NCBI RefSeq assembly: GCF_019336435.1
Contig: NZ_JAHWXQ010000005.1
Coordinates: 62,001-126,000, forward strand
Source: Pontibacter populi
GTDB taxonomy: Bacteria; Bacteroidota; Bacteroidia; Cytophagales; Hymenobacteraceae
Reading direction: 5' to 3'
Length of the DNA stretch: 64,000 nt
Shown: positions 11,393-55,788 of the stretch, piece by piece
Layout: the number at the start of each line of letters is the position of its first letter
How positions within the stretch are numbered: the stretch's first letter is position 1
Program-made: the position numbers and the translations under genes
Notes under the pieces: generated by a model
The model's database searches: none
What the model was told of the DNA's origin: nothing
The model's input: the letters and a program-made list of their open reading frames with translations, nothing else

Positions 11393-12060
11393 CAATCACC
11401 CCGGTACGTCCTTGTCTAAGGTAGGGAGCTTTTTGGCGGCTACTTCTCCTTCTGTCATTCTGAAAGAATCTTGGTAGAAGGTCGGTAAGGCCTTTGCTAT
11501 AGTTCAGATAATCATTTTATAGTTTGCGTTTTAACCCACCCCAGCACCTCCCGAGAGGGGATTTTCTGCTATAGTTGTAGTTTAGGTTGCAGTTCTATAG
11601 TTGATGCTTTAACACCCCTGTCGTCCCCTCAAGGGGACAATTGCAGCCAATACTAATTTATAAACTATAGTTCTATAGTTACAGTCCAAGATCAGGACAG
11701 GTTTACCAGTCCCTTTGAAACTGTAGCCACGATAAAAGTCGAAGCCTCCCAGTTCAAACTATGTATATAGGTAACTATGCGAAAGATCTCAGTCTTTGGG
11801 TTGAGCGCCTCGAGAGGTTCCGGTGCCGTCAGGCATGGCGAGGAACGAGCCAAGGAAGCGAAAGCAGCGCGATGCCCGAAGACGGGGCCTCCCGGCCGTG
11901 AGGGCACCAAAGCTAAATTGAAACGATAGGCAACTAGAGCTCCCAGGATTGGAGTAGCTATAGAAGAAAAGGCTTGGCTCAGGTTGTAGAGCAGCCAACT
12001 ATAGAACTATAAGCTGAGATAGATTTCTCCCTTTGGTCGAAATGACAGAGAGGGAAACTA
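11393..12060 (+). repeat. Dispersed composite intergenic repeat, copy 1
   Basis: About 670 bases between two convergent genes share a series of modules, in the same order and orientation, with 32180-32893 and 47402-47925. They are: a TCATTCTGAAAGAATCTTGG module; CCCACCCC..CCTCCCGAGAGGGG; CACCCCTGTCGTCCCCTCAAGGGG; a GGACAGG-TTTA-CC(T/A)GTCC hairpin; the 119-nt core (11794-11912); GAGCTCCCAGGATT; and AGATAGATTTCTCCC..GAAATGACA. No transposase or terminal inverted repeat was seen. CTATAG motifs punctuate the modules. Confidence 0.85.
11794..11912. repeat. 119-nt structured core of the repeat, copy 1
   Basis: The ends pair (CTTTGG with CCAAAG). Inside is TGCC-GTCA-GGCA, and in the nearly invariant 3' half CCCGAAGACGGG and GGCC-TCCC-GGCC. 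The core is exactly as long as in the other two copies. On the minus strand the same bases keep an open frame of about 50 codons (PGGPVFGHRA), so RNA and peptide readings both remain possible. Confidence 0.7.
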
Positions 12061-32179: not shown

Positions 32180-32893
32180 CAATCACCCGGCCCTTCCTTT
32201 TCTAAGGCGGGGAGCTTTTACGGCTACTTCTCCTCCTGTCATCCTGAAAGGATCTTGTTAGAAGGTCGGTAAGGCCTTTTCTATAGTTCAACGGATAGTT
32301 TTATAGCTGGTGTTTTAACCCACCCCTGCCCCTCCCGAGAGGGGAATTGCTACTAAAGCTATAGTTGATGGCATTATTCTATAGTTGCGGCGTTAACACC
32401 CCTGTAGTCCCCTCAAGGGGACAATTACCGCATTTACCAATTTCCAAGCTATAATTCTATAGTTACAGTATTACCCCTTCCCAACCTTCCCCTAAAAACA
32501 GGGGAAGGAGCTTGTCTATAGCTACAAACCACGAACAGGACATGTTTACCTGTCCCCTCGGAACTATAGCCACGATCAAGCGATGAAACTATAACTATAA
32601 TATAAACTATAAAAAAAGCTATCGAACTGATCTCAGTCTTTGGGGTGAGCGCCTTGTAGATTTCTGGTGCCGCAAGGCATTGAGAGGTACGAGCAAAAGA
32701 AATGTACACCGCGCGATGCCCGAAGACGGGGCCTCCCGGCCGTGAGGGCGCCAAAGCTAACTATAAAATAGTAGGCAGGTAAAGCTCCCAGGATAGGATC
32801 TGATTTGAAAGGAAGGCTGGGTTCAGGTTGCGGGTAACTTCAACTATAAGCCGAGATAGATTTCTCGCCGTGGCTCGAAATGACAAAAGAGAA
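32180..32893 (+). repeat. Dispersed composite intergenic repeat, copy 2
   Basis: About 710 bases upstream of guaA and of ffs share the modules of copy 1 in the same order, starting CAATCACCC and the TCATCCTGAAAGGATCTTG module. The end is AGATAGATTTCTCGCC..GAAATGACA. One added hairpin (CCTTCCCC/GGGGAAGG, about 32482-32508) is specific to this copy. The 119-nt core is at 32638-32756. Confidence 0.85.
32638..32756. repeat. 119-nt structured core of the repeat, copy 2
   Basis: Same length as the other cores. CTTTGG/CCAAAG closes it. Core positions 18-28 (TGTAGATTTCT) pair with 61-71 (AGAAATGTACA) at 10 of 11 places. The inner hairpin has a GCAA loop (TGCC-GCAA-GGCA), a GNRA tetraloop. Confidence 0.75.
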
Positions 32894-36591: not shown

Positions 36592-37896
36592 TTACTGTAC
36601 TACTTCTACCCAGCCTTTATAGTCTTTTTGGGTAAGCCGGCTCTTTATATGGTAGTAGTAGATTCCGGTAGATTCCGTGGCCCAGTTATTATCGTAACCC
36701 ATTCGCTTATAAATGCTTTTACCCCAACGGTTGAAAATTTCAATGTCGATGTTATCTATGTTTAAGCCGCTTATAACAAAAGTGTCATTCTTCCCATCGT
36801 TATTTGGGGTGATGATGTTTGGTATGATAGGACATTCATCGCTCAGAACCTTTATCTGACGTTCATACTCGCAGCCATCTACAGTGATTTTCACACTCAG
36901 GTCAATAGGGGCGGTCACGTTTATGAGGGCTGAAGTCTGTCCGTTACTCCATGTATATGTTGCACCTTGTGTTGTGGCATTGAGAGTAACAATCTCCCCG
37001 TAACAGGCATTTATAATTTCAGGTAAAGATATAGTTGGCTCCTGTTTTTGAGTAATTATAATTTCATCACGATAGCTGCATCCGGTACTGTTCGTTATTT
37101 CTGCCCAGTAAGTTCCGGCTGAAGTTACTTCTATAGTTGGTGTAGTTGCTCCAGTGCTCCATTTATAGGTTTTCATGTTGGCAGGAGCTGTAAGGATAAC
37201 TTTTTCACCTTTGCAGATTGATAAATCGGCTCCCAAGCTAAAAGTTGGCAATGCTACGCGGGTTATAACTATTTCATCTCTTAATGTACAGCCATCCACT
37301 ATAGTTTGCACAGTATACTTTCCGCCTTCGTTCACTGTAATGCTTGATGCAGTTGCCCCATTACTCCATTGTATAGAACCAACATCAGGGACACTTAGTG
37401 TAATAGTACCGGTTTCACAGAATTGGGTAGGGCCGCTGATTGAAAAACTTGGTAATGCTTTGTAATTGACGGTGGTATTATACCGGAAAGTACAGTTATT
37501 TACCGTTATATCGACCCAATAAGTACCTTGCGAATTTATGTCTATAGTTGGTGTTTTGGCCCCGGTTGACCAATAATATGTTGCACCAGGTGTAGTTGCA
37601 TTCAGCGTTATTGCTTCGCCCGGACAAATCTGATACAAACTGGCTAAGTTGACTATAGGTTTGGGAACAACCTGGATACTGATATTATCGGTAGAAGTAC
37701 AGCTGGATGTGTTTGTCACCTGCACCCAGTAATTCCCTTCTGAAGCAACGTTGATTGAAGGGGTTGTTGCCCCGGTACTCCATTTGTAAGTGTAAGCTCC
37801 AACAGGTGCTCTTAGTTGTATACCACTACCCTGGCAAATAATTTGGTCGGGCCCTAAATCAACAACAGGCAGATTTATCTCACTTACTGTAATCAT
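36592..37896 (-). CDS. T9SS type B (CHU_C) repeat protein, C-terminal part of a split adhesin
   Basis: The 434 residues contain five Ig/PKD-like repeats of about 83 residues. Each carries a WSTGATTPTI-type motif and a Cys pair (for example TYKWSTGATTPTIEV..STGC). They are followed by a CHU_C/type B sorting domain: PNIITPNNDGKNDTFVISGL and a final GWVEVVQ, which directs secretion and surface attachment by T9SS. There is no signal peptide. The frame continues upstream of the first Met (a sixth repeat, TDGTVLWSTGETSKSIKV) to join the LamG gene in another frame. It is probably the 3' half of one gene. Confidence 0.85.
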   Translation of the reverse strand: MITVSEINLPVVDLGPDQIICQGSGIQLRAPVGAYTYKWSTGATTPSINVASEGNYWVQVTNTSSCTSTDNISIQVVPKPIVNLASLYQICPGEAITLNATTPGATYYWSTGAKTPTIDINSQGTYWVDITVNNCTFRYNTTVNYKALPSFSISGPTQFCETGTITLSVPDVGSIQWSNGATASSITVNEGGKYTVQTIVDGCTLRDEIVITRVALPTFSLGADLSICKGEKVILTAPANMKTYKWSTGATTPTIEVTSAGTYWAEITNSTGCSYRDEIIITQKQEPTISLPEIINACYGEIVTLNATTQGATYTWSNGQTSALINVTAPIDLSVKITVDGCEYERQIKVLSDECPIIPNIITPNNDGKNDTFVISGLNIDNIDIEIFNRWGKSIYKRMGYDNNWATESTGIYYYHIKSRLTQKDYKGWVEVVQ

Positions 37897-38054
37897 ACCT
37901 GTAGAAGTGCACCCATTTTCTTCTATAACTACAGCGTAATTTCCTGGAGTAGATACTTTAATACTTTTGCTGGTTTCTCCAGTGCTCCACAGTACTGTAC
38001 CATCTGTAATAACACTTAACGTTGAGTTAGAGCCGGTGCAGAAAGTATTGTTTC

Positions 38055-47401: not shown

Positions 47402-47925
47402 ATTAACCCACCCCAGCCCCTCCCAAGAGGGGATTTACGGCTGGTGCTGTAGTTGTTAGTTATTGTTCTATAGCTACTGTTTTAACACACCTGTAGTCCC
47501 CTCAAGGGGACAATTGCTGCTACTGCTTCCCATCTGTCATTTCGACGAAGGAGAAATCTGAGTTCCCTATAGATACAGTCCATGAGCAGGACAGGTTTAC
47601 CTGTCCCTATGAAACTATAGCCACGATAAAGCGATGCAACCATAGCAGCTACTTAAACTATAACTTTTACTATCGAACTGATCACAGTCTTTGGGTTGAG
47701 CGTCTTGTAGATTTCTGGTGCCGTCAGGCAAGGCGAGGAACGAGCAAAAGAAATGTACACCGCGCGATGCCCGAAGACGGGGCCTCCCGGCCATGAGGGC
47801 ACCAAAGCCATATTGAAACGATAGGTTAATTGAGCTCCCAGGATTAAAGAAGGCTATGGAAGATAAGGCTTAAACTATAAGCTAAAATAGATTTTTCCTG
47901 ACGTTGAAATGACAAAGAGGAACAA
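47402..47925 (+). repeat. Dispersed composite intergenic repeat, copy 3
   Basis: About 520 bases between GT61 and topA hold the same modules as copies 1 and 2, but lack the first 'TCATTCTGAAAGAATCTT' module. It has an extra CATTTCGACGAAGGAGAAATCT stretch (about 47538-47560), inverted relative to the final AGATTTTTCC..GAAATGACA module. The 119-nt core is at 47689-47807. Confidence 0.85.
47689..47807. repeat. 119-nt structured core of the repeat, copy 3
   Basis: Again exactly 119 bases from CTTTGG to CCAAAG. It follows copy 2 in its 61-71 arm and copy 1 in its TGCC-GTCA-GGCA hairpin, so the three copies recombine features. Confidence 0.72.
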
Positions 47926-51961: not shown

Positions 51962-52107
51962 ACAAGTGTTACAACAGCATTTGAACAATCCGACTTATTT
52001 GATTAATTTGCATGTCGTACATTTTTCTACTTTAATAAGTGAGGGATGTATTAAAGGTATTTCCTGCCTTTTCAGTACAATTCAAAAAGCAATTCAACAA
52101 AACTTAT

Positions 52108-55100
52108 ATGGCCTTAGGTAAAAACTTGAAGTTGAGTAAAGACAAGCTCATCAGTGACGTAGAAGGCAGCACAGCAACTACACCGGCACCCAAAGCCGAT
52201 CGTAGTAGAAAAGCTTCTTCGACGGCAGTTGCAGACACACCCGACGCAACAGCAACACTGAATGCTGCAAAGGCAGAGAAACCTTCAGACCCTGATACAG
52301 CAGCTGCGCCGGCTAGAACAGCCAATGGCAAAGATGCCCGGATAACAGATGAAAGCCTGCTGCAGAACCCGGATTATATTAATGAACAACTAAATAAGGT
52401 ACTATACGCACTCGATGCCTTTAAAAAGGGCGATATCTCGGTGCGACTTACCAAACAGAACAACGACATTTTTGCCGAGATAGCAGAAGCCTACAACTCG
52501 ATGGTGGAAATGATCGGTGGTGTTGGTGGCGAGGTGTCACGTATCTCGAAAGTAGCCGGAGTAGAGGGTAACCTGAAAGCCCGTGCTTCTGCAGAGAACG
52601 CTTCCGGTTTCTGGAAGGACATGATCAACAACATCAACGGCCTTGTGGATTCGATTGCCGTACCGGTACTCGAAGTAGGCAAGGTACTTAAAAATATCTC
52701 ACGCGGTAACCTGGACGAAACATTCCAGATCCCGGTGTCAGGTGACTTTAAAGTGATGGCGGAAACAATTAACCGTACCATCGATAACCTGAACCTTTTT
52801 GCCGGTGAGGTAACCCGTGTGGCACTTGAAGTGGGTACGGAAGGTAAACTGGGTGGCCAGGCATCGGTACCGAACGTAGCGGGTGTATGGAAAGACCTGA
52901 CCGATAATGTAAATACCATGGCAGCCAACCTGACCCTTCAGGTACGAGATATTGCCAACGTATCTACAGCGGTTGCGAAAGGTGACCTTACCCAGAAAGT
53001 ATCGGTGGATGTACGCGGTGAAATTGCCCAGCTTAAGGACAACGTAAACCAGATGGTGGACTCGCTGAACATCTTCGCTGACGAGGTAACCCGTGTGGCA
53101 CGTGAAGTGGGTACAGAGGGTAAACTGGGCGGACAAGCCAAAGTACCTAATGTTGGTGGTGTTTGGAAAGAACTGACCGACAATGTAAATACCATGGCCT
53201 CGAACCTGACTTCTCAGGTACGTGACATTGCAAACGTATCTACCGCTGTTGGTAGAGGTGATCTGAAGCAGAAGATCACAGTAAACGTTCGCGGTGAGAT
53301 GGCCGATCTGAAAGAGAACATCAACCAGATGGTGGACTCGCTGAATATCTTCGCTGGTGAGGTAACCCGTGTTGCCCGCGAGGTAGGTACAGAAGGTAAA
53401 TTAGGTGGTCAGGCAAATGTGCCGAAAGTAGAAGGAACCTGGAAGGAACTTACTGAAAATGTAAACCTGATGGCCTCTAACTTAACACTGCAGGTACGCG
53501 ATATCGCTAACGTAGCAACCGCGGTTGCGAAGGGCGACTTAACGCAGAAAGTATCTGTGGATGTGAAAGGTGAACTGGGCGACCTGAAGGATATATTGAA
53601 TGAAATGGTGGACCGACTGAATGTGTTTGGCGCGGAAGTATCGCGTGTGGCACGTGAGGTAGGTACCGAAGGTATACTGGGTGGCCAGGCAAATGTACCG
53701 AACGTTGGTGGTGTTTGGAAAGACCTGACCGACAACGTAAACTACATGGCCAGCAACCTTACCAGCCAGGTGCGTGACATCGCAAATGTGGCGACCGCGG
53801 TAGCAAAAGGTGACCTGAGCCAGAAGATCACGGTAAATGTAAAAGGCGAACTTGCTGACCTGAAAGGTAACATGAACCAGATGGTGGACTCACTAAACAT
53901 CTTTGCTGACGAGGTAACCCGTGTGGCACGTGAAGTGGGTACAGAGGGTAAACTGGGCGGACAAGCTATAGTTCCGAATGTGGCTGGTGTTTGGAAAGAC
54001 CTGACAGACCATGTGAACTCCATGGCAGCCAACCTGACCCTGCAGGTGCGTGACATTGCAAACGTATCTACAGCAGTTGCGAAAGGTGACCTTACCCAGA
54101 AAATTACAGTGGATGTAAAAGGAGAGATGCTCTTGCTAAAAGAGAACATCAACCAGATGGTAGACTCCCTGAACATATTTGCCGGTGAGGTAACTCGTGT
54201 AGCGCTTGAAGTGGGTACTGAAGGTAAACTGGGCGGTCAGGCAGTAGTGCCGAACGTAGGTGGTACCTGGAAGGAGCTTACCGATAACGTAAACACAATG
54301 GCATCGAACCTTACAACACAGGTACGTGGCATTGTAAAAGTAGTAACAGCGGTATCGAAAGGTGACCTTACTCAGAAACTAAGCCTGGAAGCACGTGGTG
54401 AAGTAGCAGAACTTGCTGAAACGATCAACACCATGGTGATTGACCTGAACAGACTGGCTGGTGAGGTATCTCGTGTGGCCAGAGTTGCGGGTGTGGAAGG
54501 TAAACTTACAGAGCGTGCTACACTAAAAGGTGTAGGCGGTAGCTGGAAAGAACTGGTAGATACCCTTAACGATCTGTTAGAATCTATCGTTACGCCGGTA
54601 CTGGAAGTATCCCGTGTAGTACGTGCAATCTCTGAGGGTGATCTTACCCAGAAAGCTGAGATTCAAACTGCCGGTGATATCCTGGATATGGCAAATGCAC
54701 TGAACCTTGCAGTAGATAACCTGAATGCGCTACTTGGAGAAATCAATGATTCTTCCCTTGTAGTAGGTACTTCTTCTGAAGAAATGGCTATCAAAGGGCT
54801 GGATATGAACAAGGTTACACTAGATGTGGCTTTGGCAATGCAGCAGATGGCGGAAGGTGCTCAGAACCAGGCGTTAAAAACAGACCAGGCCTTTAAACTG
54901 ATCGAAGAGATCATGAAAGGTACCAAAGAGACTGCTAACCGTGCTGAAGTAGTGAACAAGACAGCATTACTTGGTGAGGAAAGCTCTCAGATCGGTTTGA
55001 AAACAGTAGCGGAAGTGGTAAAGAACATGGAAGAGATCTCCAGCTCTGCGGCACTAACTGCTAAAACAATTGAAGTATTGAGCACTCGCTCTCAGGAAAT

Positions 55101-55788
55101 ATCGAAGTCACTTGGTGTAATCACCGACATTGCCGCTCAGACTAACTTGCTTGCACTTAACGCTGCCATTGAGGCGGCCAGAGCTGGTGAAGCAGGCCGT
55201 GGTTTTGCGGTGGTAGCTGAAGAGATCAGAAAACTGGCCGAAGGTTCGCGTAAATCTGCAAGTGAGATTGCTACACTGGTAGAGGACGTGAAGAAAGATA
55301 CAGCCTCAGCAGCAACTGCGATCTCGACCATGGAAGGCCGCGTATTGAAAGGAAAGAATGCAACGTTCGAAGCATCAAGCGCCTTTAAGAACATTGCAGC
55401 ATCCAGTGGTGAAACGCTTCGTACAGCACAGGATATCTTAACAGCAACTGAAGTTCAGAAGTCATCGATCGGAGACGTTGTGAAGTATGTGGAGGAAGTG
55501 GTTGCCATTGCGGAGCAGACAGCATCTGGTACGCAGCAGGTAGCGAGCACAGCCAAGCAGCTTTCAACTTCGATGCAGGAACTGACTTCATCTTCTCAGA
55601 ACCTGAACGACATTGCGGCTGACCTGCAGATCAGTATCTCTGCCTTCAAACTTATTGATGGTAACATCATCTTTAACCATAGCAAGCCATCTCGTTTAGC
55701 TTCTATACCTGTAGGTAACGGTTCTATGAAACGTACACCGGCCAGAACACAGGCAACAGGCAGAAGCAACAGAATGAGCAACAACTAA
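52108..55788 (+). CDS. Cytoplasmic poly-HAMP methyl-accepting chemotaxis protein
   Basis: 1226 residues with no transmembrane helix. The start at 52108 ([14 protein letters not shown]) is preferred over the upstream frame start. Residues ~1-110 are basic then Ala/Pro/Ser-rich and probably disordered. Residues ~142-877 are eight 92-residue units of HAMP type; each has the form [19 protein letters not shown]...[27 protein letters not shown]. The C-terminal ~350 residues are the signalling domain with the hairpin tip [43 protein letters not shown]. It should stack in a cytoplasmic array with the CheA and CheW encoded next. Confidence 0.93.
52531..54738 (+). repeat. Eight tandem 276-bp units inside the receptor gene
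   Basis: Each unit begins at GAG/GAA: 52531, 52807, 53083, 53359, 53635, 53911, 54187, 54463. The spacing is exactly 276 bp each time, with no indel. The middle six units ([10 protein letters not shown] or [10 protein letters not shown]) are the most alike and the first and last are divergent. Confidence 0.9.

Follow-up and report, generated by a model that had tools for sequence, protein, structure and literature searches.

A new family of interspersed repeats with a conserved, pseudoknotted fold in Pontibacter and related bacteria

The HEARO/omega-RNA of IscB-IsrB is, like other guide RNAs of transposons, repeated, structured and intergenic, and some of these RNAs contain pseudoknots. REP/RAYT elements are built on a short simple palindrome that is often tagged with GTAG or CGTC. 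REPs are described as palindromes of 20-40 bp (PMC3733652), and gene conversion was put forward early on as a way in which they evolve (Higgins 1988, cited in PMC2267715). The BOX, RUP and SPRITE repeats of Streptococcus pneumoniae move slowly and were judged by the authors of that work to be parasitic (PMC3049150).

Here we compare with these systems a repeat from Pontibacter populi. The window, by which we mean the whole stretch of 64,000 nucleotides that was analysed and to which all positions refer unless a contig is named, contains three 119-nt stretches running from CTTTGG to CCAAAG, at 11794, 32638 and 47689, as an initial annotation had reported. That annotation treated the identical core length as a feature. 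It does hold for these three copies, but because match lengths range over about 114-121 nt in this genome and reach 127 nt in relatives, the equal length is a coincidence. The similarity is far above chance: a DNA search with BLAST returned at least 40 copies in this genome (G000, in which the window belongs to contig C7), and R1, a covariance model built from 27 diverse copies, gave 130 matches, 129 of which score 127-182 bits over the whole model, while the next is a single weak one at 28.6 bits. The nearest relative, G031, a genome in one contig (C1), also has 129 R1 matches; since no more than 150 candidates were scored in each genome, both counts may be lower bounds. Mean spacing in G031 is 34 kb, with copy-free gaps of 175-225 kb after C1 positions 835265, 1280686 and 580836. 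Copy 2 had been noted for its proximity to ffs, and its end indeed lies 267 bases before that gene; since the remaining copies lie elsewhere, we regard the proximity as incidental and rejected an association with ffs.

The full structured units of the three copies are all on the plus strand, at 11788-11952 (copy 1; C7:73788-73952; R1 score 160.6 bits), 32632-32797 (copy 2, model positions 1-166; 175.7 bits, E 1e-41) and 47683-47847 (copy 3; C7:109683-109847; 169.2 bits). Within copy 2, where the 119-nt core corresponds to 32638-32756, the fold is closed by helix P1, formed by GUCUUUGGG (32636-32644) and CCCGAAGAC (32719-32727), which is 98.5% paired and doubly changed at 7 of 9 pairs. P2 follows, its 5' strand GCGC (32649-32652) pairing with GCGC at 32711-32714; it is paired in 100% of 30 diverse sequences, with three pairs doubly changed. 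P3 (32655-32665 with 32698-32708), doubly changed at 10 of 10 pairs, is the helix that had been recognised initially as pairing of core positions 18-28 with 61-71, and copy 1 carries a purine-rich variant of it (CGAGAGG / GCGAAAG). P3 encloses two hairpins. One is P4, UGCC/GGCA (32668-32679; 99.1% paired), which was found in all three copies as the initial annotation had it, and the other is P5 (32680-32696), doubly changed at 4 of 4 pairs and apparently ending, on our own reading of the pair counts and alignment, in tandem G.A pairs and a GNA triloop. The 3' half had been described as nearly identical between copies. It is indeed conserved, but that description missed its anatomy, an H-type pseudoknot of the form GGCC-UCCC-GGCC-NUGA-GGG: stem 1, GGCC-UCCC-GGCC (32730-32741), is 98.3% paired, with GGCC nearly invariant in all families, and in stem 2 (32735-32748) the loop CCC at 32735-32737 pairs with the downstream GGG at 32746-32748. 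The CTTTGG/CCAAAG ends had also been offered as a helix; we found no double changes in it and a covariation of 0.057 against 0.069 in shuffles, and we rejected it as the closing helix in favour of GUCUUUGGG/CCCGAAGAC. A 21-base insert, TTATCGAGGGCCCCTACCCCC, is common to many G031 copies in the P1 3' strand (e.g. 2144202 and 2549025), and its reverse complement occurs in the P1 5' strand of other species (L049, L052 and L056 are listed with the G031 copies as carrying inserts).

The plus strand is under selection for this branched hairpin, P1 to P5, and for the pseudoknot that follows it. Pairing holds in 93.4% of the cells of the 27-sequence alignment, compared with 86.9% in shuffled controls, and double changes occur at 19 pairs. 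We then applied a tree-aware null to 88 distinct copies in a structure-blind alignment, comparing a G-test statistic with 60 null alignments obtained by reassigning the substitutions over a FastTree tree. With coordinate 1 set at window position 32632, the significant pairs (E < 0.05) were 8-93 and 6-95 in P1, 29-72 and 25-76 in P3, 49-65, 51-63 and 55-59 in P5, and 105-116 in the pseudoknot, the last being the strongest covarying pair (CG 43, GC 30, TA 9). The covariation therefore exceeds the phylogenetic null, as the initial annotation had envisaged, and it persists in other families: when relatives from these were added, in an alignment fitted to the nested helices and not to the pseudoknot, 31 of 38 pairs were doubly changed and covariation was 0.415 against 0.158 in shuffles. 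The possibility that the element is not real, and reflects chance pairing in a duplicated intergenic stretch, is hardly conceivable given covariation far above shuffles, slid partners and the tree-aware null, and was rejected. The helices contain 130 G.U against 50 A.C combinations, and this excess identifies the plus strand as the folded one; the bias fits RNA and single-stranded DNA alike.

The element occurs in Pontibacter and in three other genera of its bacterial family, in which 69 of 150 genomes and four of six genera match. Seven Pontibacter genomes lack it and six have 1-4 copies. A degenerate pattern of the core was found in Pontibacter records only, among the matches listed. Diverged relatives are present in three other families of the Cytophagales (G070, G201/G064 and G258). 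Each has helix sequences of its own on a shared plan: CAG, P1, P2, CCUU, P3, then P1', CG, R and GGCC-N4-GGCC-GAG. A second model added two more in a fourth family (G078). A locus from a class-level genome of another family (L434, in G427; E 3e-4 per genome) shows a repeated hairpin followed by GGCC-CUGC-GGCC-AUGA-GCAG at 820-974 and 1501-1595, and is possibly a minimal, class-wide version of the element, which we treat as a lead only. Searches of phages, plasmids and viral contigs gave no match to the element, and no Rfam family matched it, even at permissive thresholds, as had been suggested by the label "undescribed". We found nothing on repeats or RNA motifs of Pontibacter in the literature searched. 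This family of structured interspersed repeats is new. In few-copy genomes, the copies lie at various places, single copies adjoin ordinary genes, and no partner gene or protein was seen beside the relic copies examined.

The core is embedded in a conserved neighbourhood of about 700 bp that amounts to a composite repeat. The order and orientation of its modules are fixed, with m1 to m6 upstream, the palindrome m8 immediately before the core, and m10 after it. Around copy 2, all on the plus strand, the m4 hairpin CCCCTCCCGAGAGGGG lies at 32329-32344 (all 40 of its near-core copies lie upstream and share one orientation with the core) and the m5 hairpin TAGTCCCCTCAAGGGGACA at 32405-32423 (24 of 25 do so). 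Module m5 has GTAG beside a hairpin and is separate from the core. The palindrome m8, of the GGACAGG..CCTGTCC type (32538-32555), is directly upstream of nearly every core, and 41 of the 42 m8 sites in 1.2 Mb are so placed. The m10 repeat, GATTTCTC..TCGAAATGAC, follows the core at 32858-32885; near cores, 43 copies are downstream in the same orientation and 13 are upstream in the opposite one. One empty site differs by the entire composite, about 1350 bp, which indicates that gain or loss involves the composite, and for the same reason an insertion with target duplication could not be isolated. The octamer AACTATAG/CTATAGTT, seen for instance at 32590-32615 and 11500-11700, is about 37-fold over-represented in this genome (1892 matches in 1.2 Mb), both within genes, where it keeps to preferred frames, and above all between them; in other Pontibacter species TTATACTT takes its place, and it resembles the HIP1 octamer of cyanobacteria. 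The window also holds a 276-base tandem repeat in six to seven copies (52787-54506), inside a 1249-aa ORF (52039-55788), and, at and around a minus-strand ORF (36592-37896), a repeat of about 207 bases that occurs five times (37093-37989).

Copies occupy fixed intergenic sites on the chromosome and are rarely found in divergent promoter spaces. When 1.2 Mb of G000 was compared with 0.8 Mb of G031, 24 of 26 G031 copies with mapped flanks had a G000 copy at the corresponding site, in every case with matching orientation, and 24 of 25 sites were occupied in the reverse mapping. We saw no active transposition in this site comparison. The cores at orthologous sites are nevertheless often of different types, and the G031-specific type with the 21-base P1 insert occupies sites at which G000 has none of that type. 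When the true ortholog was ranked among all G031 copies, its median rank was about 0.5 from -400 to +166 and 0.3 from +166 to +350, while outside this interval it ranked top (24 of 24 from +450 on), so that between -400 and about +350 orthologous sites are little or no more alike than random ones. Exact shared tracts of 60-176 nt are concentrated at 0 to 178 and end near the core edges, and there are chimeric cores whose P3 strands are of different types, some of them mispaired. Because sites and orientation are kept while ortholog similarity is near random, sequences must be exchanged between fixed sites. The exchange involves short tracts with the folded core at their centre, such that types spread within each genome and positions stay, and it outpaces vertical divergence. 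Hardly any decayed copies were found in G000, and their near-absence could reflect a host function.

With simple ORF calls, 47 copies in G000 fell into 16 convergent spaces, 15 and 14 tandem spaces by orientation, and 2 divergent spaces (2 of 47, against 145 divergent pairs among 962 gene pairs overall); in named species, the corresponding counts at 64 loci were 26, 24, 10 and 4. A motif scan found the Bacteroidota promoter half-motif TAnnTTTG upstream of 5 of 76 copies, whereas it precedes 140 of 412 genes and occurs in 46 of 500 random stretches. It found a terminator downstream of 2 of 76, so neither signal was enriched at these copies. There was no significant regularity of spacing (CV 1.10) or replichore orientation (strand contrast P 0.07). 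The element does not carry a gene, probably lacks its own promoter, and matches interspersed repeats in location and copy number.

In our view the 119-base stretch is probably the conserved core within a BOX/REP-like intergenic repeat that is non-autonomous and present in high copy number, whose fold is under selection and whose copies undergo short-tract exchange. A trans-acting factor would recognise the folded single strand, either as single-stranded DNA when the chromosome is replicated or repaired, or as RNA when transcripts read through the element; such recognition would both maintain the fold and help a winning core variant to overwrite others, and spread to new sites may now be rare. 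A bolder version, which we think quite improbable, is an order-wide RNA or single-stranded DNA element whose fold promotes its own copying between fixed sites by a homing-like gene conversion, with compensatory changes sweeping more than 100 sites per genome.

Alternatively, the copies could be some 129 redundant genes for a trans-acting structured ncRNA, homogenised by gene conversion like rRNA genes. The strong conservation of structure over families of the order, the scarcity of decayed copies in G000, a concerted evolution like that of rRNA operons and a G.U bias that marks a single strand would all be expected of such genes, and the REP325-derived naRNA4 of E. coli has reportedly been proposed as a nucleoid-associated RNA. 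However, the promoter motif occurs at or below its random rate (in 5 of 76 cases, as opposed to 34% for regions upstream of genes), only 2 of 76 copies have a terminator downstream, seven Pontibacter species lack the element, and spacing and strand of the copies are random. Avoidance of divergent spaces together with the lack of promoter motif and terminator argues against 129 autonomous ncRNA genes, and we regard this explanation as unlikely. The proposal of an undescribed structured RNA is thus upheld as to "undescribed" and "structured", but not as to a transcribed RNA gene. A cis-acting 3'-UTR element, serving mRNA end formation or stability of the upstream gene as for REP/BIME, seems somewhat less likely still. 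The sense strand does follow a co-directional gene in 50 of 64 and 31 of 47 cases, and convergent spaces are favoured, but orientation in tandem spaces is nearly free (15 to 14 in G000, 39 to 24 pooled), so that most of the co-directional excess follows from promoter avoidance, and the median distance to the end of the upstream gene is 526 bp.

A REP/REPIN-type element mobilised by chromosomal RAYT (Y1_Tnp) transposases would account for the fact that all 37 Pontibacter genomes with at least seven copies have PF01797, while the seven without PF01797 have 0-2 copies. This correlation inside Pontibacter is confounded by phylogeny, and two genomes of other genera, G050 and G101, have no PF01797 match, yet each contains 19 or more copies. 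RAYT is therefore not required, and we rejected it as an obligate mobiliser. In addition, RAYTs are present in genera without the element, no core copy lies within 10 kb of this genome's three RAYT genes, and the core is not a simple palindrome; RAYT mobilisation in general thus strikes us as quite improbable.

The BOX/REP-like repeat that we favour bears on more general questions. Short palindromes, with a structure that could be incidental, are the usual form of interspersed repeats in bacteria, whereas here the fold and its pseudoknot are demonstrably selected over several Cytophagales families, and more than 100 sites per genome stay in place and keep their direction even as sequence is exchanged between them. 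The family is a natural system for asking what recognises a folded repeat, and whether it does so as RNA or as single-stranded DNA, and for studying short-tract exchange between dispersed copies that differ considerably.

Among known systems, HEARO/omega-RNA differs from the Pontibacter repeat, for which Rfam gave no match and no nuclease gene was associated with those relic copies that we examined. REP, BIME and REPIN elements are like it in being interspersed, extragenic and foldable as single-stranded DNA or RNA, but the Pontibacter core is about 120 nt long, branched and pseudoknotted, being neither a short simple palindrome nor dependent on RAYT. Similar in kind, though not known to be related in sequence, are BOX, RUP and SPRITE, which are likewise high-copy, intergenic and extensively structured (PMC3049150). 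The Pontibacter repeat has the marks of a BOX-like element, namely many intergenic copies, a conserved single-strand fold and no coding capacity, and it differs from these repeats in having a pseudoknot, in persisting across several families of one order and in exchanging sequence between fixed sites.
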